Below, piece after piece: positions 12,498 to 64,000 of a DNA stretch of 64,000 nt. Origin of the DNA: Chondrosia reniformis (taxonomy: Eukaryota; Porifera; Demospongiae; Chondrillida; Chondrillidae); NCBI GenBank assembly GCA_947172415.1, contig OX359199.1, positions 6,587,884 to 6,651,883 on the forward strand. Direction: 5' to 3'. The translations under genes were made by a program, and so were the position numbers. How positions within the stretch are numbered: position 1 is the stretch's first letter; each line of letters starts with the position of its first letter. The notes under the pieces were generated by a model that saw only the letters and a program-made list of their open reading frames with translations, was not told where the DNA came from and made no database searches.

Positions 12498-13550
12498 ACA
12501 GAACTCCAGTTAATGTACTGTTTTGTTAGAGAAAATTGCGTAATACTATATATGGCCGACCGTTAGAAGGTATAATATTATAATAAAGACAAAATTCCAT
12601 ACTATATCTGAAAATCTAGAATACTTTCCAATTTTTATACATAGGGATATGCACTGTGTAGTACTTGATTGTTATTGAAGTACTTTCTATCCATATATTT
12701 TATATGGATCTCGTTAAAGTGAAATTTCGTCAATCGACAGCCAACGAAACTCCAAAGAAAAAAAGTTGGACCATACCGAACGCTACCATCCACGACGCTC
12801 ATAGGCCGGGATCGGTGGTAACGCTCTGCCGAGTTGAGCTTTGGGTGTCACTTGCGTGAGAAGAACCAGTTCTTCTCGATATGGCCGACTCATATGAATC
12901 CTAAGATATCAGATGCCAATCCCACATTACGTGGAACCCCCCCGAAATCCGGATTATTGGTGAGCACGTCTCTATGGCACCAACCGATTAGGAGACAGCT
13001 TCAGAGTCTAAGCGCTACCAACCTCTATGGGAACCGCAACCACCATAGAGATGTGTCCAGGTAGGCCTACTATATAAGGTTTTTCGCTTCTATTTATATG
13101 AAGTTTTGTCCAAAGAAAACGGTTGTGGTTGGGACCTTTTTTAATATATTTCTCGTTATTTCCAGATCAGTGAATTGTTTCAAGCAAGTTTAAAGACATA
13201 GGCAGTATTAGTGGTTCACCTGAAAACTGGGAAAAGCGAATAAATCCTGTAAGTGTCTTGATGGGCCGAGGAGAACGACTTTTCTGATCCCAATTATTTT
13301 CGAGAAATCGTCAATTTATTCCACTTTAATTCCAGACCAGTGAATCGTTCCAAGCAATTTTACACACATACGCAGTATTTCCAATACATCTCAAAACTGT
13401 GGCATATGGATAAAAGCCTGTATGTGTCTTGGTGGAGGGAGGAGAGCGACTTTTCATGATACAGAAAACTAGATATAGTGAGAGGTCCGATATTTATCGC
13501 TTATACGATATTAATGCCTATGATCGATATTTCAACTAGGCCGATTTTAT
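12498..13550 (+). repeat. 1.05-kb interspersed unit, copy 2
   Basis: Near-identical to copy 1. Differences seen include an extra 'at' in tatatatggccgacc and attt-c-gtc in place of attt-t-gtc. It shares with copy 1 the block caaagaaaacggttgtgg, unlike copies 3 and 4. Confidence 0.92.
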
Positions 13551-16500: not shown

Positions 16501-19500
16501 TGACACAAAGGTTTAGCTTCATATCTCTCCATTTGATAGAGTGACAGCCCTCAATGTACAATAAATTCTGGTATACAAAGTTAATGTATAGTGAGAGATA
16601 GGGCAAATTTTAAGTTTCATCAAAATTTCAAAAACCCATTGGACATGTTCTATAGATGTCTGTGGATGCTGACACAAAGATTTAGTTTCATTTCTCTCCA
16701 TTTGATAGAGTGACAGCCCTCAATGTACAATAAATTCTGGTATACAAAGTTAATGTATGGTGAGAGATAGGGCAAATTTTAAGTTTCATCAAAATTTCAA
16801 AAATCCATTGGACATGTTCTATAGATGTCTGTGAATGCTGACACAAAGGTTTAGCTTCATATCTCTCCATTTGATAGAGTGACAGCCCTCAATGTACATT
16901 TAATTCTGGTATACAAAGTTAATGTATAGTGAGAGATAGGGCAAATTTTAAGTTTCATCAAAATTTCAAAAAACCCATTGGACATGTTCTATAGATGTCT
17001 GTGGATGCTGACACAAAGATTTAGTTTCATTTCTCGTCATTTGATAGAGTTACAGCCATCAATGTACAATAAATTCTGGTATACAAAGTTAATGTATTGT
17101 GAGAGATAGGGCAAATTTTAAGTTTCATCAAAATTTCAAAAACCCATTGGACATGTTCTATAGATGTCTGTGGATGCTGACACAAAGATTTAGTTTCATT
17201 TCTTGTCATTTGATAGAGTTGAGAGATAGGGCAAATTTTAAGTTTCATCAAAATTTCAAAAACCCATTGGCCAAGTTCTATAGATGTCTGTGAATGCTGA
17301 CACAAAGGTTTAGCTTTATATCTCTCCATTTGATAGAGTGACAGCCCTCAATGTACAATAAATTCTGGTATACAAAGTTAATGTATGGTGAGAGATAGGG
17401 CAAATTTTAAGTTTCATCAAAATTTCAAAAACCCATTGGACATGTTCTATAGATGTCTGTGGATGCTGACACAAAGATTTAGTTTCATTTCTCGTCATTT
17501 GATAGAGTGACAGCCCTCAATGTACATTTAATTCTGGTATACAAAGTTAATGTATGGTGAGAGATAGGGCAAATTTTAAGTTTCATCAAAATTTCAAAAA
17601 CCCATTGGACATGTTCTATAGATGTCTGTGAATGCTGACACAAAGGTTTAGCTTCATATCTCTCCATTTGATAGAGTGACAGCCCTCAATGTACATTTAA
17701 TTCTGGTATACAAAGTTAATGTATGGTGAGAGATAGGGCAAATTTTAAGTTTCATCAAAATTTCAAAAATCCATTGGCCAAGTTCTATAGATGTCTGTGA
17801 ATGCTGACACAAAGGTTTAGCTTCATATCTCTCCATTTGATAAAGTGACATCCCAAAATGCACATTTTATTCTGGTATACAAAGTTAATGTATAGTGAGT
17901 GATAGGGCAAATTTTAAGTTTCATCAAAATTTCAAAAACCCATTGTCCAAGTTCTATAGATGTCTGTGAATGCTGACACAAAGGATTAGCTTCATATCTC
18001 TCCATTTGATAGAGTGACAGTCCTCAATGTACAATAAATTCTGGTATACAAAGTTAATGTATGGTGAGAGATAGGGCAAATTTTAAGTTTCATCAAAATT
18101 TCAAAAATCCATTGGACATGTTCTATAGATGTCTGTGAATGCTGACACAAAGGTTTAGCTTCATATCTCTCCATTTGATAGAGTGACAGCCCTCAATGTA
18201 CAATAAATTCTGGTATACAAAGTTAATGTATAGTGAGAGATAGGGCAAATTTTAAGTTTCATCAAAATTTCAAAAACCCATTGGACATGTTCTATAGATG
18301 TCTGTGCATGCTGACACAAAGATTTAGTTTCATTTCTAGTCATTTGATAGAGTTACAGCCCTCAATGTACCATAAATTCTGGTATACAAAGTTAATGTAT
18401 GGTGAGAGATAGGGCAAATTTTAAGTTTCATCAAAATTTCAAAAACCCATTGGACATGTTCTATAGATGTCTGTGCATGCTGACACAAAGATTTAGTTTC
18501 ATTTCTAGTCATTTGATAGAGTTACAGCCCTCAATGTACCATAAATTCTGGTATACAAAGTTAATGTATGGTGAGAGATAGGGCAAATTTTAAGTTTCAT
18601 CAAAATTTCAAAAACCCATTGGACATGTTCTATAGATGTCTGTGAATGCTGACACAAAGGTTTAGCTTCATATCTCTCCATTTGATAGAGTTACAGCCCT
18701 CAATGTACAATAAATTCTGGTATACAAAGTTAATGTATAGTGAGAGATAGGGCAAATTTTAAGTTTCATCAAAATTTCAAAAACTCATTGGACATGTTCT
18801 ATAGATGTCTGTGCATGCTGACACAAAGATTTAGTTTCATTTCTAGTCATTTGATAGAGTTACAGCCCTCAATTTACCATAAATTCTGGTATACAAAGTT
18901 AATGTATTGTGAGAGATAGGGCAAATTTTAAGTTTCATCAAAATTTCAAAAACCCATTGGACATGTTCTATAGATGTCTGTGAATACTGACACAAAGGTT
19001 TAGCTTCATATCTCTCCCTTTGATAGAGTGACAGCCCTCAATGTACATTTAATTCTGGTATACAAAGTTAATGTATGGTGAGAGATAGGGCAAATTTTAA
19101 GTTTCATCAAAATTTCAAAAACCCATTGGACATGTTCTATAGATGTCTGTGAATACTGACACAAAGGTTTAGTTTCATATCTCTCCCTTTGATAGGGTGA
19201 CAGCCCTCAATGTACATTTAATTCTGGTATACAAAGTTAATGTATTGTGAGAGATAGGGCAAATTTTAAGTTTCATCAAAATTTCAAAAACCCATTGGAC
19301 ATGTTCTATAGATGTCTGTGCATGCTGACACAAAGATTTAGTTTCATTTCTAGTCATTTGATAGAGTTACAGCCCTCAATGTACCATAAATTCTGGTATA
19401 CAAAGTTAATGTATGGTGAGAGATAGGGCAAATTTTAAGTTTCATCAAAATTTCAAAAACCCATTGGACATGTTCTATAGATGTCTGTGAATGCTGACAC

Positions 19501-22500
19501 AAAGGTTTAGCTTCATATCTCTCCATTTGATAGAGTTACAGCCCTCAATGTACAATAAATTCTGGTATACAAAGTTAATGTATAGTGAGAGATAGGGCAA
19601 ATTTTAAGTTTCATCAAAATTTCAAAAACTCATTGGACATGTTCTATAGATGTCTGTGCATGCTGACACAAAGATTTAGTTTCATTTCTAGTCATTTGAT
19701 AGAGTTACAGCCCTCAATTTACCATAAATTCTGGTATACAAAGTTAATGTATTGTGAGAGATAGGGCAAATTTTAAGTTTCATCAAAATTTCAAAAACCC
19801 ATTGGACATGTTCTATAGATGTCTGTGAATACTGACACAAAGGTTTAGCTTCATATCTCTCCCTTTGATAGAGTGACAGCCCTCAATGTACATTTAATTC
19901 TGGTATACAAAGTTAATGTATGGTGAGAGATAGGGCAAATTTTAAGTTTCATCAAAATTTCAAAAACCCATTGGACATGTTCTATAGATGTCTGTGCATG
20001 CTGACACAAAGATTTAGTTTCATTTCTCGTCATTTGATAGAGTTACAGCCCTCAATGTACCATAAATTCTGGTATACAAAGTTAATGTATGGTGAGAGAT
20101 AGGGCAAATTTTAAGTTGCATCAAAATTTCAAAAACCCATTGGACATGTTCTATAGATGTCTGTGAATACTGACACAAAGGTTTAGCTTCATATCTCTCC
20201 CTTTGATAGAGTGACAGCCCTCAATGTACATTTAATTCTGGTATACAAAGTTAATGTATTGTGAGAGATAGGGCAAATTTTAAGTTTCATCAAAATTTCA
20301 AAAACCCATTGGACATGTTCTATAGATGTCTGTGCATGCTGACACAAAGATTTAGTTTCATTTCTCGTCATTTGATAGAGTTACAGCCCTCAATGTACCA
20401 TAAATTCTGGTATACAAAGTTAATGTATGGTGAGAGATAGGGCAAATTTTAAGTTTCATCAAAATTTCAAAAACCCATTGGACATGTTCTATAGATGTCT
20501 GTGAATACTGACACAAAGGTTTAGCTTCATATCTCTCCCTTTGATAGAGTGACAGCCCTCAATGTACATTTAATTCTGGTATACAAAGTTAATGTATTGT
20601 GAGAGATAGGGCAAATTTTAAGTTTCATCAAAATTTCAAAAACCCATTGGACATGTTCTATAGATGTCTGTGGATGCTGACACAAAGATTTAGTTTCATT
20701 TCTCGTCATTTGATAGAGTGACAGCCCTCAATGTACATTTAATTCTGGTATACAAAGTTAATGTATGGTGAGAGATAGGGCAAATTTTAAGTTTCATCAA
20801 AATTTCAAAAACCCATTGGACATGTTCTATAGATGTCTGTGCATGCTGACACAAAGATTTAGTTTCATTTCTCGTCATTTGATAGAGTTACAGCCCTCAA
20901 TGTACAATAAATTCTGGTATACAAAGTTAATGTATTGTGAGAGATAGGGCAAATTTTAAGTTCCTTCAAAAGTTCAAAAATCCATTGGACATGTTCTATA
21001 GATGTCTGTGAATGCTGACACAAAGGTTTAGCTTCATATCTCTCCATTTGATAGAGAGATAGCCCTCAATGTACATTTAATTCTGGTAAACAAAGTTAAT
21101 GTATGGTGAGAGATAGGGCAAATTTTAAGTTTCATCAAAATTTCAAAAACCCATTGGACATGTTCTATAGATGTCTGTGAATACTGACACAAAGGTTTAG
21201 CTTCATATCTCTCCATTTGATAGAGTGACAGCCCTCAATGTACATTTAATTCTGGTGTACAAAGTTAATGTATGGTGAGAGATAGGGCAAATTTTAAGTT
21301 TCATCAAAATTTCAAAAACCCATTGGACATGTTCTATAGATGTCTGTGAATACTGACACAAAGGTTTAGCTTCATATCTCTCCATTTGATAGAGTGACAG
21401 CCCTCAATGTACATTTAATTCTGGTATACAAAGTTAATGTATGGTGAGAGATAGGGCAAATTTTAAGTTTCATCAAAATTTCAAAAACCCATTGGACATG
21501 TTCTATAGATGTCTGTGGATGCTGACACAAAGATTTAGTTTCATTTCTCGTCATTTGATAGAGTTACAGCCCTCAATGTACAATAAATTCTGGTATACAA
21601 AGTTAATGTATAGTGAGAGATAGGGCAAATTTTAAGTTTCATAAAAATTTCAAAAACCCATTGGACATGTTCTATAGATGTCTGTGGATGCTGACACAAA
21701 GATTTAGTTTCATTTCTCGTCATTTGATAGAGTTACAGCCCTCAATGTACCATAAATTCTGGTATACAAAGTTAATGTATGGTGAGAGATAGGGCAAATT
21801 TTAAGTTTCATCAAAATTTCAAAAACCTATTGGACATGTTCTATAGATGTCTGTGGATGCTGACACAAAGATTTAGTTTCATTTCTCGTCATTTGATAGA
21901 GTTACAGCCCTCAATGTACCATAAATTCTGGTATACAAAGTTAATGTATGGTGAGAGATAGGGCAAATTTTAAGTTTCATCAAAATTTCAAAAACCCATT
22001 GGACATGTTCTATAGATGTCTGTGGATGCTGACACAAAGATTTAGTTTCATTTCTCGTCATTTGATAGAGTTACAGCCCTCAATGTACCATAAATTCTGG
22101 TATACAAAGTTAATGTATTGTGAGAGATAGGGCAAATTTTAAGTTTCATCAAAAGTTCAAAAATCCATTGGACATGTTCTATAGATGTCTGTGAATGCTG
22201 ACACAAAGGTTTAGCTTCATATCTCTCCATTTGATAGAGTGACAGCCCTCAATGTACATTAAATTCTGGTAAACAAAGTTAATGTATTGTGAGAGATAGG
22301 GCAAATTTTAAGTTTCATCAAAATTTCAAAAACCCATTGGACATGTTCTATAGATGTCTGTGAATACTGACACAAAGGTTTAGCTTCATATCTCTCCATT
22401 TGATAGAGTGACAGCCCTCAATGTACATTTAATTCTGGTATACAAAGTTAATGTATGGTGAGAGATAGGGCAAATTTTAAGTTTCATCAAAATTTCAAAA

Positions 22501-24100
22501 ACCCATTGGACATGTTCTATAGATGTCTGTGAATCCTGACTCAAAGATTTAGTTTCATTTCTCGTCATTTGATAGAGTTACAGCCCTCAATGTACCATAA
22601 ATTCTGGTATACAAAGTTAATGTATTGTGAGAGATAGGGCAAATTTTAAGTTTCATCAAAATTTCAAAAACCCATTGGACATGTTCTATAGATGTCTGTG
22701 GATGCTGACACAAAGATTTAGTTTCATTTCTCGTCATTTGATAGAGTTACAGCCCTCAATGTACAATAAATTCTGGTATACAAAGTTAATGTATGGTGAG
22801 AGATAGGGCAAATTTTAAGTTTCATCAAAATTTCAAAAACCCATTGGACATGTTCTATAGATGTCTGTGAATGCTGACTCAAAGATTTAGTTTCATTTCT
22901 AGTCATTTGATAGAGTTACAGCCCTCAATGTACCATAAATTCTGGTATACAAAGTTAATGTATTGTGAGAGATAGGGCAAATTTTAAGTTTCATCAAAAT
23001 TTCAAAAACCCATTGGACATGTTCTATAGATGTCTGTGGATGCTGACACAAAGATTTAGTTTCATTTCTCGTCATTTGATAGAGTTACAGCCCTCAATGT
23101 ACAATAAATTCTGGTATACAAAGTTAATGTATGGTGAGAGATAGGGCAAATTTTAAGTTTCATCAAAATTTCAAAAACCCATTGGACATGTTCTATAGAT
23201 GTCTGTGGATGCTGACACAAAGATTTAGTTTCATTTCTCGGCATTTGATAGAGTTACAGCCCTCAATGTACATTTAATTTTGGTATACAAAGTTAATGTA
23301 TTGTGAGAGATAGGGCAAATTTTAAGTTTCATCAAAATTTCAAAAACCCATTGGACATGTTCTATAGATGTCTATGAATGCTGACACAAAGGTTTAGCTT
23401 CATATCTCTCCATTTGATAGAGTGACAGCCCTCAATGTACATTTAATTCTGGTATACAAAGTTAATGTATAATGAGAGATAGGGCAAATTTTAAGTTTCA
23501 TCAAAATTTCAAAAACCCATTGGACATGTTCTACAGATGTCTGTGAACGCTGACACAAAGATTTAGCTTCATATCTCTCCATTTGATAGAGGGACAGCCC
23601 AAAATGTACATTGAATTCTGGTATACAACGTTAATGTATGGTGAGAGATAGGGCAAATTTTAAGTTTCATCAAAATTTCAAAAACCCATTGTCCAAGTTC
23701 TATAGATGTCTGTGAATGCTGACACAAAGGATTAGCTTCATATCTCTCCATTTGATAGAGTGACAGTCCTCAATGTACAATAAATTCTGGTATACAAAGT
23801 TAATGTATGGTGAGAGATAGGGCAAATTTTAAGTTTCATCAAAATTTCAAAAACCCATTGGACATGTTCTATAGATGTCTGTGAATGCTGACACAAAGGT
23901 TTAGCTTCATATCTCTCCATTTGATAGAGTTACAGCCCTCAATGTACAATAAATTCTGGTATACAAAGTTAATGTATAGTGAGAGATAGGGCAAATTTTA
24001 AGTTTCATCAAAATTTCAAAAACCCATTGGACATGTTCTACAGATGTCTGTGAATGCTGACACAAAGGTTTAGCTTCATATCTCTCCATTTGATAGAGTT
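13551..24100 (+). repeat. Main satellite array (about 62 monomers of 169 bp)
   Basis: 10.5 kb of uninterrupted forward monomers. Higher-order structure is visible. A 1804-bp duplication places the same shortened monomers at 13815/15619 and the same truncated-monomer junction (gatagagttgagagataggg) at about 14450, 16254 and 17219. An 845-bp (five-monomer) duplication places a private variant (aaaactcattgg) at 18781 and 19626. Monomers fall into subtypes by ggacatg or ggccaag, tgtggatgc or tgtgaatgc, and catttaattc or caataaattc. 169 is not a multiple of 3, so open frames shift with each monomer and are not genes. Confidence 0.97.
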
Positions 24101-25152
24101 ACAGAACTCCAGTTAATGTACTGTTTTGTTAGAGAAAATTGCGTAATACTATATATGGCCGACCGTTAGAAGGTATAATATTATAATAAAGACAAAATTC
24201 CATACTATATCTGAAAATCTAGAATACTTTCCAATTTTTATACATAGGGATATGCACTGTGTAGTACTTGATTGTTATTGAAGTACTTTCTATCCATATA
24301 TTTTATATGGATCTCGTTAAAGTGAAATTTCGTCAATCGACAGCCAACGAAACCCCAAAGAAAAAAAGTTGGACCATACCGAACGCTACCATCCACGACG
24401 CTCATAGGCCGGGATCGGTGGTAACGCTCTGCCGAGTTGAGCTTTGGGTGTCACTTGCGTGAGAAGAACCAGTTCTTCTCGATATGGCCGACTCATATGA
24501 ATCCTAAGATATCAGATGCCAATCCCACATTACGTGGAACCCCCCCGAAATCCGGATTATTGGTGAGCACGTCTCTATGGCACCAACCGATTAGGAGACA
24601 GCTTCAGAGTCTAAGCGCTACCAACCTCTATGGGAACCGCAACCACCATAGAGATGTGTCCAGGTAGGCCTACTATATAAGGTTTTTCGCTTCTATTTAT
24701 ATGAAGTTTTGTCCAAAAAAAAGGGTTGTGGTTGGGACCTTTTTTAATATATTTCTCGTTATTTCCAGATCAGTGAATTGTTTCAAGCAAGTTTAAAGAC
24801 ATAGGCAGTATTAGTGGTTCACCTGAAAACTGGGAAAAGCGAATAAATCCTGTAAGTGTCTTGATGGGCCGAGGAGAACGACTTTTCTGATCCCAATTAT
24901 TTTCGAGAAATCGTCAATTTATTCCACTTTAATTCCAGACCAGTGAATCGTTCCAAGCAATTTTACACACATACGCAGTATTTCCAATACATCTCAAAAC
25001 TGTGGCATATGGATAAAAGCCTGTATGTGTCTTGGTGGAGGGAGGAGAGCGACTTTTCATGATACAGAAAACTAGATATAGTGAGAGGTCCGATATTTAT
25101 CGCTTATACGATATTAATGCCTATGATCGATATTTCAACTAGGCCGGTTTTA
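24101..25152 (+). repeat. 1.05-kb interspersed unit, copy 3
   Basis: Near-identical to copy 4 and slightly different from copies 1-2: it has accccaaag in place of actccaaag, a run of A followed by gggttgtgg, and ggccggttttatt at its right end. Confidence 0.92.
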
Positions 25153-28100
25153 TTAGATGTCTGTCAATGCTGACACGAAGATTTAGCTTCATATCTCTCC
25201 ATTTGATAGAGTGACAGCCCTCAATGTACATTTAATTCTGGTATACAAAGTTAATGTATGGTGAGAGATAGGGCAAATTTTAAGTTTCATCAAAATTTCA
25301 AAAATCCATTGGCCAAGTTCTATAGATGTCTGTGGATGCTGACACAAAGGTTTAGCTTCATATCTCTCCATTTGATAAAGTGACATCCCAAAATGCACAT
25401 TTAATTCTGGTATACAAAGTTAATGTATAGTGAGTGATAGGGCAAATTTTAAGTTTAATCAAAATTTCAAAAACCCATTGTCCAAGTTCTATAGATGTCT
25501 GTGAATGCTGACACAAAGGTTTAGCATCATATCTCTCCATTTGATAGAGCGACAGCCCTCAATGTACAATAAATTCTGGTATACAAAGTTAATGTATTGT
25601 GAAAGATAGGGCAAATTTTAAGTTTCATCAAAATTTCAATAACCCATTGGACATGTTCTATAGATGTCTGTGGATGCTGACACAAAGATTTAGTTTCATT
25701 TCTCGCCATTTGATAGAGTTACAGCCCTCAATGTACAATAAATTCTGGTATACAAAGTTAATGTATTGTGAGAGATAGGGCAAATTTTAAGTTTCATCAA
25801 AATTTCAAAAATCCATTGGACATGTTCTATAGATGTCTGTGAATGCTGACACAAAGGTTTAGCTTCATATCTCTCCATTTGATAGAGTGACAGCCCTCAA
25901 TGTACATTTAATTCTGGTATACAAAGTTAATGTATGGTGAGAGATAGGGCAAATTTTAAGTTTCATCAAAATTTCAAAAATCCATTGGCCAAGTTCTATA
26001 GATGTCTGTGGATGCTGACACAAAGGTTTAGCTTCATATCTCTCCATTTGATAAAGTGACATCCCAAAATGCACATTTAATTCTGGTATACAAAGTTAAT
26101 GTATAGTGAGTGATAGGGCAAATTTTAAGTTTAATCAAAATTTCAAAAACCCATTGTCCAAGTTCTATAGATGTCTGTGAATGCTGACAGAAAGGTTTAG
26201 CTTCATATCTCTCCATTTGATAGAGTGACAGCCCAAAATGTACATTGATTTCTGGTATACAAAATTAATGTATGGTGAGAGATAGGGCAAATTTTAAGTT
26301 TCATCAAAATTTCAAAAACCCATTGGACATGTTCTATAGATGTCTGTGGATGCTGACACAAAGATTTAGTTTCATTTCTCGTCATTTGATAGAGTTACAG
26401 CCCTCAATGTACAATAAATTCTGGTATACAAAGTTAATGTATGGTGAGAGATAGGGCAAATTTTAAGTTTCATCAAAATTTCAAAAATCCATTGGACATG
26501 TTCTATAGATGTCTGGGAATGCTGACACAAAGGTTTAGCTTCATATCTCTCCATTTGATAGAGTGACAGTCCTCAATGTACATTTAATTTTTGTATACAA
26601 AGTTAATGTATTGTGAGAGATAGGGCAAATTTTAAGTTTCATCAAAATTTCAATAACCCATTGGACATGTTCTATAGATGTCTGTGGATGCTGACACAAA
26701 GATTTAGTTTCATTTCTCGCCATTTGATAGAGTTACAGCCCTCAATGTACAATAAATTCTGGTATACAAAGTTAATGTATTGTGAGAGATAGGGCAAATT
26801 TTAAGTTTCATCAAAATTTCAAAAACCCATTGGCCATTTTCTATAGATGTCTGTGAATGCTGACACAAAGGTTTAGCTTCATATCTCTCCATTTGATAGA
26901 GCGACAGCCCTCAATGTACAATAAATTCTGGTATACAAAGTTAATGTATGGTGAGAGATAGGGCAAATTTTAAGTTTCATCAAAATTTCAAAAACCCATT
27001 GGACATGTTCTATAGATGTCTGTGAATGCTGACACAAAGGTTTAGCTTCATATCTCTCCATTTGATAGAGTGACAGTCCTCAATGTACATTTAATTTTGG
27101 TATACAAAGTTAATGTATGGTGAGAGATAGGGCAAATTTTAAGTTGCATCAAAATTTCAAAAACCCATTGGCCAAGTTCTATAGATGTCTGTGAATGCTG
27201 ACACAGAGGTTTAGCTTCATATCTCTCCATTTAATAGAGTGACAGTCCTCAATGTACATTTAATTTTGGTATACAAAGTTAATGTATTGTGAGAGATAGG
27301 GCAAATTTTAAGTTTCATCAAAATTTCAAAAACCCATTGGCCAAGTTCTATAGATGTCTGTGAATGCTGACACAGAGGTTTAGCTTCATATCTCTCCATT
27401 TGATAGAGTGACAGCCCTCAATGTACATTTAATTCTGGTATACAAAGTTAATGTATGGTGAGAGATAGGGCAAATTTTAAGTTTCATCAAAATTTCAAAA
27501 ATCCATTGGCCAAGTTCTATAGATGTCTGTGAATGCTGACACAAAGGTTTAGCTTCATATCTCTCCATTTGATAAAGTGACATCCCAAAATGCACATTTA
27601 ATTCTGGTATACAAAGTTAATGTATGGTGAGAGATAGGGCAAATTTTAAGTTTCATCAAAATTTCAAAAACCCATTGGACATGTTCTATAGATGTCTGTG
27701 AATGCTGACACAAAGGTTTAGCTTCATATCTCTCCATTTGATAGAGTTACAGCCCTCAATGTACAATAAATTCTGGTATACAAAGTTAATGTATGGTGAG
27801 AGATAGGGCAAATTTTAAGTTTCATCAAAATTTCAAAAACCCATTGGCCAAGTTCTATAGATGTCTGTGAATGCTGACACAGAGGTTTAGCTTCATATCT
27901 CTCCATTTGATAGAGTGACAGCCCTCAATGTACATTTAATTCTGGTATACAAAGTTAATGTATGGTGAGAGATAGGGCAAATTTTAAGTTTCATCAAAAT
28001 TTCAAAAATCCATTGGCCAAGTTCTATAGATGTCTGTGAATGCTGACACAAAGGTTTAGCTTCATATCTCTCCCTTTGATAGAGTGACAGCCCTCAATGT

Positions 28101-28424
28101 ACATTTAATTCTGGTATACAAAGTTAATGTATGGTGAGAGATAGGGCAAATTTTAAGTTTCATCAAAATTTCAAAAACCCATTGGACATGTTCTATAGAT
28201 GTCTGTGAATGCTGACACAAAGGTTTAGCTTCATATCTCTCCATTTGATAGAGTTACAGCCCTCAATGTACAATAAATTCTGGTATACAAAGTTAATGTA
28301 TGGTGAGAGATAGGGCAAATTTTAAGTTTCATCAAAATTTCAAAAACCCATTGGACATGTTCTACAGATGTCTGTGAATGCTGACACAAAGGTTTAGCTT
28401 CATATCTCTCCATTTGATAGAGTT
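25153..28424 (+). repeat. Satellite array segment 4 (about 19.4 monomers)
   Basis: Forward 169-bp monomers between unit copies 3 and 4. A four-monomer (676-bp) duplication is visible: the same unusual monomer, with ataaagtgacatcccaaaat, recurs at about 25374 and 26050. Confidence 0.96.
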
Positions 28425-29478
28425 ACAGAACTCCAGTTAATGTACTGTTTTGTTAGAGAAAATTGCGTAATACTATATATGGCCGACCGTTAGAAGGTAT
28501 AATATTATAATAAAGACAAAATTCCATACTATATCTGAAAATCTAGAATACTTTCCAATTTTTATACATAGGGATATGCACTGTGTAGTACTTGATTGTT
28601 ATTGAAGTACTTTCTATCCATATATTTTATATGGATCTCGTTAAAGTGAAATTTCGTCAATCGACAGCCAACGAAACCCCAAAGAAAAAAAGTTGGACCA
28701 TACCGAACGCTACCATCCACGACGCTCATAGGCCGGGATCGGTGGTAACGCTCTGCCGAGTTGAGCTTTGGGTGTCACTTGCGTGAGAAGAACCAGTTCT
28801 TCTCGATATGGCCGACTCATATGAATCCTAAGATATCAGATGCCAATCCCACATTACGTGGAACCCCCCCGAAATCCGGATTATTGGTGAGCACGTCTCT
28901 ATGGCACCAACCGATTAGGAGACAGCTTCAGAGTCTAAGCGCTACCAACCTCTATGGGAACCGCAACCACCATAGAGATGTGTCCAGGTAGGCCTACTAT
29001 ATAAGGTTTTTCGCTTCTATTTATATGAAGTTTTGTCCAAAAAAAAGGGTTGTGGTTGGGACCTTTTTTAATATATTTCTCGTTATTTCCAGATCAGTGA
29101 ATTGTTTCAAGCAAGTTTAAAGACATAGGCAGTATTAGTGGTTCACCTGAAAACTGGGAAAAGCGAATAAATCCTGTAAGTGTCTTGATGGGCCGAGGAG
29201 AACGACTTTTCTGATCCCAATTATTTTCGAGAAATCGTCAATTTATTCCACTTTAATTCCAGACCAGTGAATCGTTCCAAGCAATTTTACACACATACGC
29301 AGTATTTCCAATACATCTCAAAACTGTGGCATATGGATAAAAGCCTGTATGTGTCTTGGTGGAGGGAGGAGAGCGACTTTTCATGATACAGAAAACTAGA
29401 TATAGTGAGAGGTCCGATATTTATCGCTTATACGATATTAATGCCTATGATCGATATTTCAACTAGGCTGGTTTTATT
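28425..29478 (+). repeat. 1.05-kb interspersed unit, copy 4
   Basis: The last copy, with the same private variants as copy 3 plus aggctggttttatt at its right end. After it the satellite monomers become strongly diverged. Confidence 0.92.
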
Positions 29479-34036: not shown

Positions 34037-37000
34037 ATGGCGGAACAAGGCATCCTGGCTAACCAAAGCTCTCTTGCTGAGACCCAAGCTCCAGCAATGC
34101 CACCAGGTCCTGGACCAACTTCAAGTCCTCTTTTGTGAGTTTAATTGAAGAGAGAAGAGCGCTGTCAAAGCCTGTATGAGGATCTTAACAATTCTAATTA
34201 GTGCACACCCTTTAGCTTTATACTTATTACTCTTGATTCATCTGTAGACCGCGTCCCAATGTTGGTAATACAGGTAAAGTGCCGTTCATGGGAGCCAATC
34301 CGCCGCCCTTTCTGCAAGCCCCAACTGCAGGTGCCTTGTCTCGACCCTCCTGTAACACACTTAACAGTACTGCCTAGGATATAGCTGTGCTATGGTAGGG
34401 AACGACTTGTGTGTGATCTTTAGACAGTCAACCTTGTCTTTTGGAGCCCTCCTTGCATATCAATACTGAACCTACTGTCGTGGTATATGATACGCTTATT
34501 TGTATGGGAATGTATGTCTATGATTGCAGTAGTTATCTGATCTGTAGCATGTGTACATACATGGTTACATATATATCAATGTAACTTGTTCTGCATAATA
34601 AATATGTATGTTAAATATCCATATTAATGCACCTTAGTACAGTTTTCATATAATTATATATATATATACCCTTACATATAGACGTATAGCATATACCCTT
34701 ACGTATAGATGTATAGCATATACCCTTACGTATAGCGTATACCCTTACATATAGCGTATACCCTTACGTATAGCATATACCCTTACGTATAGCATATACC
34801 CTTACATATAACGTATACCCTTACATATAGCATATACCCTTACATATAGTATATACCCTTACGTATAGCGTATACCCTTACATATAGTATATACCCTTAA
34901 GTATAGCATATACCCTTAAGTATAGTATATACCCTTAAGTATAGCATATACCCTTAAGTATAGTATATACCCTTAAGTATAGCATATACCCTTAAGTATA
35001 GCATATACCCTTAAGTATAGCATATACCCTTACATATAGTATATACCCTTAAGTATAGCATATACCCTTAAGTATAGCATATACCCTTACATATAGTATA
35101 TACCCTTAAGTATAGCATATACCCTTAAGTATAGTATATACCCTTAAGTATAGCAGATACCCTTAAGTATAGTAGATACCCTTAAGTACATTCCTAAACA
35201 TAGTAGTCCATTAAAGTTGTGCTGTCTCATATTAGTAGCTTGTTACCATCGTTGCTACTCGTATTATTAACATACCTAGGTATGCCTCCAGGACCAGTAC
35301 AAGCTGGCATTATGTTGCCTCCGGGTGCTGGAAGACCTGGTCCCCCACCTGGGATGCCTCCCAGACCCATGGGAATGCCTCCTGGGATTCCCCCAAGAGG
35401 AATGCCAGCCCCTATGTCAGGCCCTGGGGATGTCCCTCCTCCGTTCATGCACCAGAAGGACGTCTGGCTGGAACACAGAATGCCGGATGGGAAGGTGTAC
35501 TTTTCCAATCCGGTGACACGGAAGACACAGTGGGAGAGACCTGTGGATGCCATCGTTCAGCCTGGACCACCTGCCCCACCTACCCAGCCAGTAGCTCCAG
35601 AGGACACGCCTTCCAAAACATTACTAGTCCCAGCTCCAGTATGGAGTGAGCACAAGACAGGAGATGGAAAGGTCTATTACTACAATAAGATCACAATGGC
35701 CTCAGTCTGGGAGAAACCAAAGGATTTTGATCTGGTGGTTCCAATGCCACCTTCTCTTGCTGGAGGCAGAGAAACGGCTGAGCCAAACAAGGCAGGTACG
35801 CCTGATGCATCAAAGGAGAAGAATGAAGTTGGCAATCAAGAAGTTGTGACTTCTTCAGTGATTCAACCTACTCCAGTAGCTATGACAACGGTAAGAATCT
35901 CAAACTAGTTGGTCACAAGGGGTTTCCCCCTTACATGCTGCACTGTAGTTTTTATGAATGTTTTCTTGTAGACTGTGTCTAGTGATACAACTTTGAAGAG
36001 TCACTCAGAAGTTAGAATGATGCCAGCCAAGGATGAAGGAGCTACTAAGCCGGTGGCCACGCAGCCTGTCAGTGGAACACCGTGGTCAGTGGTCTGGACC
36101 AACGATGACAAGTACTTCTTCTTCAATGCAACCACAAAGCAGTCCATTTGGAGCATCCCTGAAGACATTCAGCGTCTGCCCATCCTGAAGGTGCTGTTGG
36201 CAGCTCCTCCTGGGAAGAGGAGGATGGATGGTCCTAGTCAGAGGGGTGATGCTGGGAGTGATCTACCAAACCCCAAGAGAGTCAAGTGTGTGATGTAGCC
36301 GCTCATGTATTCTTATACTTATAAATAGAATGGCTGTACAATGAGTTGGAGGGTCTGGTTGTACGTACATGACAATTGTTATTCAGGAGTGTTGATGGTG
36401 ATGATGCCATGGAGACAGCCACCAATAATGAACCCATGGATACAAGTAATCAGGGTGGTAGTAACGAGGACCCAGAGATGGCAGAAAAGAGGAATTCAAT
36501 GTCTACTGAAGAGAGGACAAGAGACTTTAGAGAAATGCTTTTAGAGAGAGGTGTAAGTCTGACTGTTAATACATTGGAGGAACTTTAATACAGTACGTAT
36601 TTGTGTCCACTTGTCCACTTATTTATTAATGTTTGTGAGGTTATATGTAGTTTAGTGATAATGTGTTATTTCTCATCTGAGCAGGTCTCCGCCTTTTCAA
36701 CTTGGGACAAAGAATTACCTAAATTCTGTTTTGATGAACGCTATCGCCTACTTGCAGCCAAGGAGAGAAGAACAGCATTTGAAGAGTTTATTAGAGATAG
36801 AGCAGACGAGGAGATGAGAGAAAAGAAAAATAAGTTGAAAGAAGTCAAGGACAACTTTAGGAAGCTGCTGGATAGTGCCAAGCTAACACAGAGGTATGTG
36901 TGACACACGGGACTGTGTAAATAGTGTTGGCACGTCAGGTCTGTCAGGTTATCCTTTGTCTAATGTTAATTTGGACTGTTAGTTCTTTTAATGTTGAAGT

Positions 37001-54082: not shown

Positions 54083-57000
54083 TCATCTCTTGTTGAACCA
54101 TTGGTCCACTCGGACGTAGCTCCCTGAATCCAGGTTCTTGGCCATCAACAGCCCATTGGGGGCATTAGGTACTTTGTGCTCATAGTACAGCGGATTGGTA
54201 CAGTTGTCCTATAGCCCAATTAACAGAAAATATAGTAATATATATATATATATATATACATACAATTAATGCTTTTATGATGAGTGGTCTCTTGATATAC
54301 TGCTACGTATGTGGAATTGATTCTTGAAAGATTAGTGAACTTATCACTATACGTTACTATATGTAATTTATTCAGCTGATAAAGTATTTTCCTCTATTGT
54401 ACAGATTACACATTGGGCTTCACATAACCACACTATATAACATTTGGAAGTATACATATATACAGTGCAAGTTACAATATACTAAGGTAATCTAATATAA
54501 ATAAATAAATAAATAAATAATATAAATAATCAAATAATTCATATGGCTCCAAGAAAGATATATACAGGGAACGTATGTATGTAGAGTTCTCACTGAGAGG
54601 TACTGTAGAGCTGCCTTTGTAACCTTTGCACAACCAGAGAGGTAAAATTCTTCAAGTTTAGTGCAATTTTCAGCTAGGGAGAACACTGATCTGTCAGTTA
54701 GCTTATGATTTCCAGCTACATTCAGCAATTGTAGTTCATTGCAGTATGCAGCAATCTCACAAATTCCACAATCTGAAAAGTTTCCATTTTTTATATTAAG
54801 AATGCGAATATTTGGTAAATTCCTAGCTATGCTGAAAGCAACATCATCATCCAAACCCTTTAATGCAGCTAAGCAAAGAACCTCCAAATTCTGACACTCA
54901 CTGATAGCAACCCTCACAACGTCAATTTGAAACTAGAAAGTAGTTAACATGGATACACTTTAAAATAAACTAAAAGTATATACGTACGTATATTGTCAAT
55001 CTAACACTTTATATTAAAACAAGTTATAGATACACCTTACATTTTTGCTTCCAGAGAGCAATAATTCTTTGAGTTTCAAAGCTCTACTTTTATCTTTTAA
55101 CAAAGGCAAAATGGTAACTCCAGTTATATTAAAGAGATTCATGAGCGACAGATGACTAACTGCAGTGCAGTAGGTAGTGATAGATTGACATGCTTTATCT
55201 GTCAGATCTGTACAGTTTGACACTTGAAGTTCCTTCACTCGGAATCCTGCCGTCATACAAATCTATTATTCCAAATCAATATATCAATCAAAATATATAT
55301 CATAAGCTTATGTGAGTGTGTGAGGGTGTGTATTTATGTGAGTGTGTGAGGGTGTGTCTTTATGTGAGTGTGTGAGGGTGTGTCTTTATGTGAGTGTGTG
55401 AGGGTGTGTATTTATGTGAGTGTGTGAGGGTGTGTCTTTATGTGAGTGTGTGAGGGTGTGTATTTATGTGAGTGTGTGAGGGTGTGTATTTATGTGAGTG
55501 TGTGAGGGTGTGTCTTTATGTGAGTGTGTGAGGGTGTGTCTTTATGTGAGTGTGTGAGGGTGTGTATTTATGTGAGTGTGTGAGGGTGTGTCTTTATGTG
55601 AGTGTGTGAGGGTGTGTGTATGTGAGTGTGTGAGGGTGTGAAGTCTTACTCTGTCAAAGTTGCTGTCGTTGAGGCTGGCTATTCCGCAGAGGGAGAGAGT
55701 TGTAAGGTGCTGGAGTGTGGCTGCCATATCTAGAGACTCTTGCTCTAAAGGGAGTCCATTAATGTGCAAACACTGCAAACTGTTTCTCAGTAAAGACTGT
55801 GACAATATTTCCTGCATAGCAGTATCCTCAATCTCCTTACATATAGATATATTCAGTTCTTCAACCTTACAACAACTAGCCATCTACAACACACAGCACA
55901 GAGACACACTCACTACACATGTATAGGATTCACAGAAGATCAAGAGAAGATGAAAGAAAGGAAAAGACAAAAGAAAAGACTCCTGTATCTTCATCCAAAG
56001 CTCTCTTCAGGTTTAATTCCCCTATAGGCTTTTTACAGAATAGGCATAGCATGTAGGCTAATGGTATATTAGATTTTCATATGTACCAGACAAAGATACA
56101 TATGAGTTGAATTTATATGCAACTGTATACAGTGATCATTCTTACACCTCTCTACTTACAGTAGGACTTAAAAAAAATGAATGATAGGCAGTCTATTTTA
56201 ATTTACATAATAACCATACGTATCATGTAAGGGTAATAGATTATCGTGAGGAGGGATTAAAAGGTGTGCTGCATACAGTAATATTTGTACTTCACTGTTC
56301 TTATGTTATGACAGTTAACCCAGGTGCATGTGTGCAGTCTAAGTGCAATGCAATGCATGATCATTCATAAACTTTAGCTAACAAGTTGTGAGTATGTAAC
56401 TTATATATATATATATATAACACCATACCTCAGTTAGACCAACACCATTGAGCTTAACACAGTCTTCAAAATTAGCTCTGCAATGAAACAGAGATTAGAG
56501 ATCCTGACTGCACTTATTTTGTCTATAGGCCATATTTCCACTACATTCACATGTAATATTTCCACTACATATAACAATGAAGTTATATAGTGCCAAGTTG
56601 AATTGACTTTGAAATCATAAACCTCATTGTTTCAACATCTAAGATAATTACATGCTATTGTATTTATGTTAATGATAGCTCAATTAGAAGAGATCAAGGA
56701 ATGCAATATCCAAGTATAAACTGACCTTCTCAGATTAGGACAATAGCTAGCTAGAGCTAGAGTGGATAAGGATGTCAGCTGATTTAGTCCAGCAGCATCT
56801 AACTCCTCCTACATAATTTTGTAACAAATTAATAAAGTACTAAAAATCTCTATAGTTAATATATACAGGTATAAATACAACTTGCTGTATACTAATTGAA
56901 AGAATCAATACATTCAGTTATACTAATTGACTTGAAATCAAATAATTACCAATGTGAATACAACTTCATTCAAACACTGTATAATATGTGTAAATTAATT

Positions 57001-58545: not shown

Positions 58546-58935
58546 CTCGCCCCAGCCTGTGATTATCGGGATTTCCCGTAATCGTAACTAAATATAGAAA
58601 GTTGCTCCCACGCACCACCTACTGACATTGACACGAGATCTCCTGACCCGACAGACGATTACTTGAGAGGATTCCGACGTTATAGACCCATCAAATCGCT
58701 TCAAGAATAAAATCAGGTAATAATTAGTAGTCGTATGCTATAACGATAGTCTAGGTTATTGATCAATGGGATATATCGTTTAATGAAGTTATAGAATGAA
58801 GCCAATCAGTGGGTACTCTTTTATCACATTCTTTCCTGCAAAAGTCAATATTAGTCAATAACTAGAGTGCAATTATTTATTTAACATAATAATTCCGTAT
58901 TGGCGTCATTGTACTCTCTTATATAATGTAGTGAC
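58546..58935. promoter_or_regulatory. Divergent promoter region of LRR and Kelch genes
   Basis: 390 bp between two head-to-head start codons. A likely 5' UTR intron of the Kelch gene runs from a donor at about 58717 (ctcag|gtaata-like) to the acceptor atgtag at 58931, just before the ATG. No TATA box or other clear element. Confidence 0.45.
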
Positions 58936-60732
58936 ATGTCGAGGAAAATGTCACATATACCTGTTCAGAGCTTGCATGAGAAAGGCAAGGTCAAAGAGGG
59001 TGCCTCAGGCAGCAAAGTGTCAGAGGAAGGTGGCACCATCTACGTGCAGGACTACCACGACCAACTCTGCATGAATGCAGTGTACGAGATGTGGCAGAAG
59101 AAACAGCTATGCGATATTACAATAGTGGCAGAGGATAAGGATATATTGGCACACAAGTTGATATTGGTGGCTAGAATTCCTTATTTTCAAGCCATGCTTA
59201 CTAAAGAGTGGATGGATAATGGCAGTGAGATAGTGCTGAAGGATGTCAACCATGAGGCTTTGAAGAAAATAGTAGAATTTGTTTATACTGGTGAGATTGA
59301 GATATGTCCACAGACGGCCGAGGCTATTCTAACTACTTCTAGCTACCTGGAACTCCCAACAATAGTTGAAGCATGTGAGAGATACATAGCCAACCACCTT
59401 ACCTTCGATAACTGCATTGGCATCTACAGCTTTGCAAGGCTGCATAATCTCAAGGATTTATTCAACAATGTTGAGGTCTATATCACAAAGAATTTCAGCA
59501 GCGTCACTGAATCTGAAGATTTTGTCAACATGAAACAGGAAGACCTGCTTAAGTTTGTTGCTATGGATCAAATTGCCGTTCGTTCGGAGGAAGAAGTTTT
59601 CCATGCCGTAGCCAAATGGTTGGAGCATGACCCTGCCAACCGCTCAGAGTATGTTCTTTTGCTCTTTGACCATATCAGATTTCCCATTATGTCACTTAAG
59701 TTTTTAAGGGATGTGGTCAGTCGTAACATCATGGTCTCCATCTCCCAACCTTGTCAGGCAATGCTCAAGCAAGCAATGGAGTACCACCAGAACCCCAGTG
59801 TGACCTCCTTCACAAGTCCCAGGAAGACCCTTGCAAGAAAATCCTTTCTTGGTCACATTTGCCTTATAGGGGGTGTCAATAATGATGGCGATACCCTGAA
59901 TAATGTTGATTTCTTCATCCCTCACGAGGACCAGTGGAGAGAGGGTACAAAGATGAACTGCCACCGTGGACGTCTGGCAGTAGCACTGTGTAATGGCCAC
60001 CTCTATGCCATCGGAGGATCCCAAGCCAGCATGTGCCTGGAGACTGTCGAGAGATACAGCCCAAAGTTTGATATCTGGGAGATGGTTTCTCCCATGAACA
60101 CACCAAGGCGCAATTGTACTGCAGTTGTAGTTGGCAATCTTATATTTGTGCTTGGGGGGTATAACGGCTCTGTGTTTCTGCGCTCTGTCGAAGTGTTCTC
60201 CCAGAATGCCAACAGTTGGACCTATCAACCGGCCATGATTGAGGCGCGCAGTGAATTGACTGCAGTCTTCCATGAGCAGCATATTTATGCAATGGGGGGA
60301 TTCAATTCAAAAGAGCGTCTGAAGTCAGTGGAGAGATTTGATATCGTGAATCGTCAGTGGACCATGGTAGCCAATATGACAGTTCCAAGATCCAATTTTG
60401 GGGCTGCGCTCTTGGGACAAGAGATCTTTGTGTGTGGTGGCCAAAGCACCAGTGACGTCCTTGCTACTTCAGAGATATACAATGTAGAAGAAAACCTTTG
60501 GGAGTCCATCAGTGCTGAAATGTCCACCCCTCGAGTGGGACTGGCCTACGTAGCTCTAGGAAACAAAATTTATGCATTGGGTGGGTCAAATGGTTCAGAG
60601 TACCTTGAGAGTGCAGAGTGCTATGATCCAAGCAAAAAGGAGTGGATTCTAATGTCTCCATTGCGTGATAAGCGTTTTTCAGCTAGTGCTATTGTATTGT
60701 CAAAGCAGCTTATTGAGGACAAATTAAATTGA
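58936..60732 (+). CDS. BTB-BACK-Kelch protein (KLHL family), single coding exon
   Basis: Likely substrate adaptor of a Cullin-3 ubiquitin ligase. It has 598 residues, the typical KLHL length. The BTB domain at about 45-150 contains LCDITIVAEDKDILAHKLIL and FVYTGEIEI. The BACK domain at about 155-260 contains NCIGIYSFARLHNLKDL and SEEEVFHAVAKWLEHD. Six Kelch repeats follow from about 307 to 590, each with paired glycines and spaced Y/W (LCNGHLYAIGGSQAS, IFVLGGYNGSVFL, IYAMGGFNSKERL, IFVCGGQS, IYALGGSNGSEYL). The N-terminal 40 residues are Lys/Gly/Ser-rich. The coding region has no intron, unlike all its neighbours, which could reflect an old retroposition, although a 5' UTR intron seems present. 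The human orthologue is not assigned. Poly(A) signal at 60868-60873. Confidence 0.93.
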   Translation: MSRKMSHIPVQSLHEKGKVKEGASGSKVSEEGGTIYVQDYHDQLCMNAVYEMWQKKQLCDITIVAEDKDILAHKLILVARIPYFQAMLTKEWMDNGSEIVLKDVNHEALKKIVEFVYTGEIEICPQTAEAILTTSSYLELPTIVEACERYIANHLTFDNCIGIYSFARLHNLKDLFNNVEVYITKNFSSVTESEDFVNMKQEDLLKFVAMDQIAVRSEEEVFHAVAKWLEHDPANRSEYVLLLFDHIRFPIMSLKFLRDVVSRNIMVSISQPCQAMLKQAMEYHQNPSVTSFTSPRKTLARKSFLGHICLIGGVNNDGDTLNNVDFFIPHEDQWREGTKMNCHRGRLAVALCNGHLYAIGGSQASMCLETVERYSPKFDIWEMVSPMNTPRRNCTAVVVGNLIFVLGGYNGSVFLRSVEVFSQNANSWTYQPAMIEARSELTAVFHEQHIYAMGGFNSKERLKSVERFDIVNRQWTMVANMTVPRSNFGAALLGQEIFVCGGQSTSDVLATSEIYNVEENLWESISAEMSTPRVGLAYVALGNKIYALGGSNGSEYLESAECYDPSKKEWILMSPLRDKRFSASAIVLSKQLIEDKLN

Positions 60733-61102: not shown

Positions 61103-62375
61103 ATGTCGACGAAAATGGCTGCTAGATCGTCCGTATGTTTGTTATTGCTTTGTGGTCCACCGTCTTGCGGTAAAACTCTCTTAGTAAACCACTTGACAAC
61201 CTCTGGGAAACTTGATAAATACAACTTAATTTCACTGTCATGCGACAAATATTATCCGCCGCATCCATCTTGTCCGCTGCAAGACACTGGCATTCCGTTT
61301 TCTCTAAGAGCAGAGAGACGAAAATTGAATTTATGCATATACAAATTTTTAAGTATAAATGGCTTCATAACAGAATATTTAGATCATGAGAAACAAGCTG
61401 TGTTAAGTAAAGGGGAATTTCAGGAGTTCCTAGATGTGCTCTCCTTCGGGCCATTACTCGAGGTATCTCGTGATGGCAGGTAAGACGTTCATTGGTCAAT
61501 ATATGTAGGTATCATTCTGCTATATCTCACCTAATTGAACCTAGGATTCGTATGGAACTGGACTTCATAACATTTGTGATAGATGACAATATGATCTACA
61601 ATAGCATCAGACATGAATATTATCAGATGGCAAGAGATGGTAGGACAAATAAAATAGCAACTAATAAATTGTATTGTTTATAATACTGTTCTATGGAGGA
61701 TATAAAAATATGTAACTTTGACTTTATGTAGCCAAGCTAAAAAAGAGTTTCAGTATAAATAATGATACCTTATAGAACGGTATAATGTATTGATATAGTA
61801 TACTGGTAGAGTACTGTATAATGTACTAATAATATAGCACTGTGTAATATACTACTGAATAATAATACTGTATAATGTACTTTTGTTATAGTATTATATA
61901 AACTACATTGCCTATGTTCAGGTATGCTGGGGTTAGGTATCTTATATATAACATGCGATGTCAAGGAGGCCATTGAAAGAAATATAAAACGTGGTTGTCC
62001 TATTCCTGAAGTGACCCTAATTAAAGTGCACCATGATGCTGAACAGCCTGACATGGTAACAGGGTCACTATGGGAGAAAAATTGCTGCATCTTGAAAAAT
62101 AGCAATATCAGTGAAGAAGTGTTTTTAGAAAAGGGACTGTAAGTTTCTTGTAAATGTGAATCCTGAAATTATTAAATTTTATTCTAGTAATTGAAATACT
62201 AACTTATCTTTTGTAGTACATCTGTGATGGCACTGTTGGACTATGCAGGCAGTAACCCATGGCAACCTCTTTCCACTGGGGATAGCGAGGCAAAGGTAAC
62301 ATTTTCATGCACTAGTTATGTGTTCAATCATTCATTTTGTTATTGATTTATTAACAGCAAAAATTACTGTCCTAA
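61103..62375 (+). CDS. PSTK: L-seryl-tRNA(Sec) kinase, 5 exons
   Basis: Phosphorylates seryl-tRNA(Sec), the step before SepSecS makes selenocysteinyl-tRNA. Exons 61103-61479, 61545-61639, 61922-62138, 62217-62295 and 62358-62375 give 261 residues with closed phases. The N terminus has a P-loop (LLCGPPSCGKTLL) and then ISLSCDKYYPP. The second exon carries FVIDDNMIYNSIRHEYYQMA, very close to the PSTK motif VLDDNxxYxSMRYEVYQLA. Later, GLGILYITCDVKEAIERN matches the LFLDCPLETCLQRN region, and SLWEKNCCIL corresponds to the NAWEHNSL region. It is shorter than human PSTK (about 348 residues) at the C terminus. The last exon is only six codons and is the least certain. The second ATG (codon 5) has a better context. 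The stop lies 61 bp from the stop of the convergent next gene. Confidence 0.82.
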
Positions 62376-62436
62376 ATGAAATTATTAAATTTAAATGAAA
62401 CAAAGTCAAATTTAAATGAAACATTTTTTTGGAGTT

Positions 62437-64000
62437 TTAATCAAATCCATTGACTTTAAACAAAAAGTCTCCACTGTGTCTATCATAGGAGATGAACAGC
62501 AAATCTTTGTCAGTGCAATTTTTTCTTAATCTTCTTTCCATCTTCTCATAGCCCTCTTTGTTCTTCTTGCGTGGCTGAAGTCCATAAAAGGTGACCAGTG
62601 ATGGCTTGTTGAGACCTTCCCCAGATTTGGGGACAGGGATACCAGCTGGGTATACAGTCACTTCACCAGGCTCAATTATGACAGTCGCATCCAAATCAAT
62701 AGCTGTTACATCTGTATAGCCCAAAAATTGAACACTTCCTACTGTTTTATGTATCACTGTAAAATTGCGAACTTGCTTAAGACTGTCTTCCCCAAGTGTA
62801 ACAATCTCATCCATTGAGGGTAGGGTAGCATAATCCATATTAGTAAGCCTTGGATGGTAAGGATTAATCCCCTGTTTGACCTCCTCCGCCAGAAACTCAG
62901 CCAATTTTTCAATAGTTCCAAGCTCGACCAGTTTACTAAACTTCATTTGAATGGCATACTTTTCATCCAGCATCATCAACACTTCCGTTAGGGTGAGTGA
63001 TGAGATTCCCAGGGCAAAGAAGTTCATAGTAGCAACATCTTCCAGAGGTGATAATTCTGGTTGAGACATTTTAATCTTTTCAAAAAGAACCTTTAAGATG
63101 TCATCTTTTGAAGTTGTTAATTGTGTCATGATTTTCCTATCAGATATACCAGGGTACAGTTGCTTGAGTAGGTTCTGTGCAATCATGTGGGGAGTAACAT
63201 CTTCCAGTTGGGCCACAGTCATAGTTATTCCCGTTCTTAATTTTATCATTTTGATAAAGTCTTCTTTCTGAGCTTCTGTCATACCAAGTTCAGCCAAATC
63301 CTGATGTTCAGATATGGATTTGTTCATAATGTCCAAATCCAAAACTTCCTGAGTTGTTAGACAGACTAATTCACTCAAAAACAGTAATCTTTCTTCACTG
63401 GTCATCTCCAGTGTTGCCACGGTAATGCTGTTGTTAGATTCAGCAGAGACTGAGGATGCCACTCTTACAACCAAATCACTGTATACACTAGAGGATCTTC
63501 TTCGTTGGGATGGAATGTTGTCTGGAGACCTGGGACTAGTGGCGGTATGACCAGACAGGATGGCCTCAACTTTGGCTCTGAAAGGACATCTCTCAAGGAT
63601 GCTGGGGTGCTTGGCTGAATCCAGCGGGTGTCTCTGCCTCAGATACACCTGGGTATCATAATCACTTCGCAGTTCCATAAAGGCCTTCCGGACATTATGC
63701 ACTGTGGACAAGGAGTGTTTAGTGAAGGGATGAACCCCATTGCTTTTATCCAGAGTAAAGCCATTGCCAATGCTGGCAAATGTGTGTACGTGAAGTTGAA
63801 GTATGCCGTTCATGATATCATCCATACCACTGGTGAATGTAGGCTGTTCCTGTAGCATTCTCATAAAGTTTGGTAGGTAATCCAGTGGTACATCTCCAGG
63901 AAGATATAGTTTACCGCTACTGTGGGAATAGAATGGAACTTTTGGTGGTCGAGCAGTGATAGCCCTATTTATGGACACTGAATCAGGAACTATGTGACTG
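62437..64000 (-). CDS. PKS/FAS-like protein, C-terminal part: AT tail, two carrier-like domains, NUP98-type domain
   Basis: The frame is open to the window edge; 520 residues are visible with no intron. Residues 1-90 look like the end of an acyltransferase domain (PPKVPFYSHSSGKLY, then VHTFASIGNGFTL). A Ser/Arg-rich linker follows. Residues about 195-285 are carrier-protein-like, but the phosphopantetheine serine position is not serine (LAELGMTEAQ). Residues about 300-378 form a second carrier-like domain with a usable serine (FFALGISSLTLTEVLMML). Residues about 382-520 resemble the NUP98 autoproteolytic domain along their whole length: LPSMDEI, VRNFTVIHKTVGSVQFLG, EVTVYP, SGEGLNKPSLVTFYG and SGDFLFKVNGFD, where NUP98 has IPSMEEL, ENFTV, EVIVYP, GEGLN and WVFKVSHF. 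The protein ends where NUP98 is cut, and the His-Phe-Ser cleavage site is absent. The substrate and product are unknown. Confidence 0.72.
   Translation of the reverse strand, partial: SHIVPDSVSINRAITARPPKVPFYSHSSGKLYLPGDVPLDYLPNFMRMLQEQPTFTSGMDDIMNGILQLHVHTFASIGNGFTLDKSNGVHPFTKHSLSTVHNVRKAFMELRSDYDTQVYLRQRHPLDSAKHPSILERCPFRAKVEAILSGHTATSPRSPDNIPSQRRRSSSVYSDLVVRVASSVSAESNNSITVATLEMTSEERLLFLSELVCLTTQEVLDLDIMNKSISEHQDLAELGMTEAQKEDFIKMIKLRTGITMTVAQLEDVTPHMIAQNLLKQLYPGISDRKIMTQLTTSKDDILKVLFEKIKMSQPELSPLEDVATMNFFALGISSLTLTEVLMMLDEKYAIQMKFSKLVELGTIEKLAEFLAEEVKQGINPYHPRLTNMDYATLPSMDEIVTLGEDSLKQVRNFTVIHKTVGSVQFLGYTDVTAIDLDATVIIEPGEVTVYPAGIPVPKSGEGLNKPSLVTFYGLQPRKKNKEGYEKMERRLRKNCTDKDLLFISYDRHSGDFLFKVNGFD

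Follow-up and report, generated by a model that had tools for sequence, protein, structure and literature searches.

Background

To our knowledge, the autopeptidase domain of NUP98 is known from nucleoporins only. According to the accessible part of PMC1560137, the catalytic dyad of the autopeptidase consists of the His and the Ser of a HisPheSer motif, and in Arabidopsis Nup98 and Nup96 are encoded at separate loci. The domain has a second function, the binding of either the N-terminus of Nup96 or the propeller of Nup88 (PMC11148069, accessible part), and in the fungal counterpart the NUP98-type domain binds the propeller of Nup82 (PMC5653651, accessible part). Type I FAS and PKS have been reported to be absent from sponges and ctenophores (PMC10764717, accessible part), and no type I FAS/PKS is listed for Amphimedon in a table of the accessible part of PMC4604110.

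Here we describe a locus in which a carrier and a NUP98-type domain are fused within one frame of the DNA. All positions refer to the window, the whole stretch of DNA that was analysed (64,000 nucleotides).

Results

The minus-strand frame at 62437-63999 enters across the window end, its 5' end lying beyond the window, and runs uninterrupted through 520 codons to a TAA stop codon (62437-62439), as had been claimed in the initial annotation. At the base composition found here, the chance of 520 open codons is approximately 5e-15. An AATAAA polyadenylation signal was found by pattern scan 84 nt 3' of the stop codon (62347-62352, minus strand). The Pfam matches to PF04096 (E=4e-27) and to PF00550 (E=5.1e-11) are both within this single frame, and the 45 distinct PDB sequences listed for it at E<=1 comprise 23 nucleoporins, 21 carriers or carrier-bearing synthetases and one unrelated sequence. 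Since both domain types are matched in Pfam as well as in the PDB, the central observation is not due to chance.

An apparent fusion could also be produced by two genes, if a separate NUP98-like gene started at Met388, or by a misjoin in the assembly. The initiation context of Met388 is good (A at -3, G at +4) and in keeping with a separate gene; a shorter product may also be initiated there inside the fused gene. However, the frame continues without a stop from the carrier into the NUP98 domain, and no donor or acceptor pattern was detected at their junction when splice patterns were scanned (the whole ORF has one strong donor-like GTAAGA, at offset 531, and no strong acceptor). Moreover, the upstream frame would have to enter the Met388 gene by accident. 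The GC3 values of four segments of the ORF were 0.36-0.43, and the junction showed no jump outside this range, which argues against both alternatives. Taking these observations together, we regard two genes or an assembly artefact as most improbable.

The NUP98-type domain, delimited by the PF04096 match and by alignment, comprises residues 379-520 (62440-62865, minus strand). The Pfam match to Nucleoporin2 extends over residues 388-519 with a score of 95.6 bits (cut-off 28.4), covers positions 2-143 of the 148 of the profile and has the same C-terminal end point as known members; the best nucleoporin match of the ORF in the PDB had E=4.8e-19. The domain was 38, 35 and 34% identical to three nucleoporin domains from the PDB matches, 9hcj_U0, 5cww_A and 5e0q_B, respectively, and the alignment of all four domains contained 24 invariant columns. 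Expressed differently, 24 of the 34 aligned positions that are invariant among the three nucleoporins are kept, and ten are changed (G412N, R417H, L431V, I439T, K456V, A467S, L471F, W475Q, W512F and H518G). In a held-out control, the positions shared by two of the nucleoporins were checked in the third nucleoporin and in the window domain; the window domain keeps 25/43, 35/59 and 29/41 of them, the third nucleoporin 34/43, 34/59 and 34/41. Judged from these comparisons, the C-terminal domain is a member of the NUP98 autopeptidase family that has diverged and is not eroded, with a well-preserved core. The assignment made in the initial annotation thus passed the HMM check, and the five motifs on which it was based (LPSMDEI, NFTV, EVTVYP, GEGLN and FKVNGFD) are all present in the translation. 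Alignment-free AlphaFold models had a mean pLDDT of 40.3 (NUP98 domain) and 43.1 (the carrier pair) and were too poor for fold searches. Because ten nucleoporin-invariant positions have been lost, the surface that binds Nup88 or Nup96 may no longer be intact.

At the position of the cleavage site, where the three nucleoporins have KHF, EHF and NHF, the window domain reads NGFD and is followed by the stop codon; the equivalent of the His-Phe|Ser site is G518-F519-D520 (62440-62448, minus strand). Gly518 stands in place of the catalytic His, the Ser of the dyad is also absent, and no HFS motif occurs anywhere in the 520-aa ORF. Inspection by eye of the frames past the stop codon offered no downstream exon that would restore HFS, and no Nup96-like frame was apparent when 61901-62439 was inspected in three frames. 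With neither dyad residue left and a chain that terminates just past the old cleavage point, the domain, as predicted from its residues, is unable to perform the known self-cleavage. It had been proposed that the protein ends exactly where cleavage would occur, as if fixed in the cleaved state. The end is indeed at the site, but it lies one residue beyond the equivalent of the scissile bond (F519, D520, stop), with the His replaced. The phrase is an apt description, but a domain without Nup96 is already known from Arabidopsis (PMC1560137, accessible part), and since Nup98 and Nup96 are apart in that plant, termination at the cleavage point would not in itself be unique.

The loss of the catalytic residues and of ten invariant positions would also be compatible with a non-adaptive origin, in which a NUP98 exon or retrocopy was captured at the 3' end of the gene and has been tolerated as an inert cap without a specific job. 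The intact frame and the well-preserved core are at odds with such a remnant, and we consider this explanation doubtful, if deserving of serious attention.

The initial annotation recognized two carrier-like domains ahead of the NUP98 domain. The second one (residues 318-370; 62890-63048, minus strand) is clear: it was matched by PF00550 (PP-binding) and by PDB carriers, and it retains the phosphopantetheine Ser as S334 (62998-63000) in the sequence LGISSL, which makes its identity firm at the level of sequence. The first one (residues 199-285; 63145-63405, minus strand) is weak. It was delimited by alignment with its single PDB match, 6h0j, the carrier of a type I modular PKS (E=0.015); it had no Pfam match at E<=10, and Glu242 stands opposite the phosphopantetheine Ser. 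It is probably a silent carrier.

An acyltransferase-like C-terminal tail had also been proposed. The corresponding segment (residues 9-84; 63748-63975, minus strand) was matched neither in Pfam nor, at E<=10, in the PDB. It was compared by hhalign with a profile made of the C-terminal parts of nine bacterial AT domains from one actinobacterial (Embleya) record. The score was 24.0 over 69 columns with E=0.0049, but with a probability of only 7-10%. This score was reached by none of 500 shuffles (maximum 21.3) and by none of 91 control stretches of 110 residues each, taken from neighbouring ORFs and from the rest of the ORF (maximum 18.4). A plain HMM built from these ATs gave only 5.8 bits, a value matched by 2 of the 1454 scoring shuffles (2000 made), and phmmer comparison of the tail with the frames of 10 AT loci yielded nothing convincing. 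The AT identity of the tail is thus likely but unproven. Approximately 115 residues separate the tail from the first carrier, a distance that leaves no room there for DH, KR or ER domains. Between the two lies a Ser/Arg-rich linker (residues 151-190; 63430-63549, minus strand), in which the sequence SQRRRSSSVYS presumably resembles a site for basophilic kinases. The carriers, together with the AT-like tail, lead us to place the enzyme tentatively in the PKS/FAS class; a ketosynthase, if present, would be located beyond the window.

Ten neighbouring ORFs were scanned with Pfam: six had a match above cut-off, one had only weak AAA-type matches below the cut-offs, and three had none. Apart from the two genes described below, ORFs of the window match hexokinase, WW (TCERG1-type), PDE12-like, RasGEF and Calx-beta sequences. 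The hexokinase exon matched PDB chains of hexokinase type I/II, which we take to be vertebrate, with E values down to 6e-59, rice hexokinase with 4.7e-21 and 1bdg, presumably a flatworm (animal) hexokinase, with 1.4e-18. The neighbouring gene set is animal-like by these matches, and the host is likely an animal, although the lower score of 1bdg does not fit a simple reading. A kelch/BTB/BACK (KLHL-type) protein is encoded at 58927-60732 on the strand opposite to the carrier gene, in a single frame of 601 codons. The gene at 61104-62300, also on the opposite strand and arranged tail to tail with the carrier-NUP98 gene, has a P-loop motif and short introns; Pfam gave only weak AAA-type matches, and we assume it to be seryl-tRNA(Sec) kinase-like. 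Satellite-like arrays, built of a 169-bp unit whose copies are at least about 90% alike and with G+C near 0.33, occupy several blocks at 9898-28428, the largest of which is at 17220-24104 (40.7 copies). A 19-bp tandem array (34664-35188, with 25 copies at 34711-35188) immediately precedes the WW-domain ORF at 35207, and a 26-bp tandem array (55308-55640, 12.9 copies, 96% matches) overlaps the minus-strand open frame 55542-55883. Rfam and tRNA scans of the whole window gave no hits.

Relatives were searched in prokaryotic, viral, phage and plasmid collections, so that the negative results say nothing about animals. With the whole ORF, 26 pattern matches were obtained in bacterial/archaeal contigs and two in viral contigs; with the alignment of the NUP98 domain as query the numbers were 93 and 15, and with the NUP98 domain alone 10 matches were found in viral contigs. 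None of these was confirmed. In tblastn searches the NUP98 domain found three phage records (best E=2) and one plasmid record (E=6), and the first 375 residues found eight plasmid records (E 2 to 10), with matches reported only over 291-375, the region of the second carrier. No report of a NUP98 domain joined to an acyl-carrier enzyme was found among the literature matches listed, subscription papers and genome annotations being outside the scope; the six papers naming both 'nup98' and 'polyketide synthase' concern rice blast, as judged by title. It is quite possible that a gene model of the fusion is present, unremarked, in a database.

Discussion

The locus carries a real and surprising combination of domains, in which the NUP98 part and the second carrier are firm; the mechanism is what we infer from them. 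The visible part would be the 3'-terminal portion of an acyl-carrier enzyme of type-I-like build, composed of an AT-like tail, a carrier that has no Ser and an intact carrier. In such enzymes the terminal position is often occupied by a thioesterase. Here the place usual for a thioesterase or release domain would be taken by a paralogous NUP98 autopeptidase domain that is joined to the carriers with almost no linker. As self-cutting has been lost, anchoring of a partner, or a derived form of anchoring, is the natural proposal: the property that would remain to the domain is that of holding a partner, either an N-terminal tail or a beta-propeller. Docking would fix the loaded carrier beside the partner, which might be a release enzyme, a tailoring enzyme or a scaffold, with the nuclear pore as one candidate. 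We find it somewhat probable that this is a genuine in-frame fusion in which the non-cleaving NUP98 domain terminates the acyl-carrier enzyme as a non-covalent docking module. The recruitment of the fold for binding or docking, suggested in the initial annotation, is consistent with the loss of the dyad and with the retention of 24/34 core positions, but docking itself is deduced from these features.

Tethering to the nuclear pore would be a special case of docking, and the likelihoods of the two overlap, the pore case being nested within the docking module. The enzyme would be placed at the pore by putative binding to the N-terminus of Nup96 or the propeller of Nup88. Both are known ligands of the domain (PMC11148069, accessible part), and the same 24 family-invariant positions count in favour of this possibility, but ten others are lost and no FG occurs in the visible part (0 in 520 residues), so that we consider a pore tether unlikely.

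The NUP98 domain could alternatively act itself as a catalytic substitute for the thioesterase and release the product. Its location at the usual place of release domains fits such a role, and FAS-like PKSs that have no thioesterase exist in molluscs, with release mostly unknown (PMC10764717, accessible part). Release through HFS chemistry is, however, disfavoured because the domain has neither the His nor the Ser needed for the known acyl shift, and catalysis by the domain appears very unlikely.

In combination with docking, a wider picture can be drawn, to which we attach rather low confidence. The host would be an animal, perhaps a non-bilaterian from groups such as sponges or ctenophores, for which an absence of type I condensing enzymes has been reported, with its own PKS/FAS-like megasynthase whose product would be a polyketide or fatty acid; the dead NUP98 fold would replace the release domain and serve as a socket for the N-terminal tail of a partner, possibly tying the assembly line to the pore. 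If the fusion is real and expressed, a domain of pore assembly has found a second use at the end of a carrier-protein enzyme, as its terminal module, and a natural cleavage-dead version is available for testing what the NUP98 fold does besides cutting. Should the gene moreover come from a sponge or ctenophore and have a ketosynthase upstream, it would contradict the absence of type I FAS/PKS reported in the accessible parts of PMC10764717 and PMC4604110.

Comparison with known systems

The closest described domain is the C-terminal domain of NUP98/Nup145N/Nup116 (PF04096, MEROPS S59). The window domain is 34-38% identical to three members and shares their C-terminal end point, and plants, too, have Nup98 without Nup96 behind it (PMC1560137, accessible part). 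In contrast to these proteins, the window domain has neither the His nor the Ser of the dyad and is placed behind acyl carriers. Active S59 autopeptidases have HFS, whereas the window protein has G518-F519-D520 and a stop. In nucleoporin Nup98 FG/GLFG repeats precede the domain, whereas there is no FG in the 520 visible residues; in the Nup98-Nup96 precursor Nup96 follows the cleavage site, whereas the window protein stops after D520 and has no Nup96 part.

The FAS-like PKSs of molluscs (mo-clades 1-3, PMC10764717) likewise have no terminal thioesterase, and for most of them the release route is unknown according to the accessible part of that paper, in whose main text, as far as accessible, the word 'nucleoporin' is absent. 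With animal type I PKS/FAS in general the window protein shares a carrier with Ser (PF00550, E=5.1e-11; S334), carriers in tandem and, weakly, an AT-like tail. It differs from them in that no ketosynthase is found in the part within the window, the first carrier follows the AT-like tail after only about 115 residues and has no Ser, and the protein ends in a NUP98 domain.
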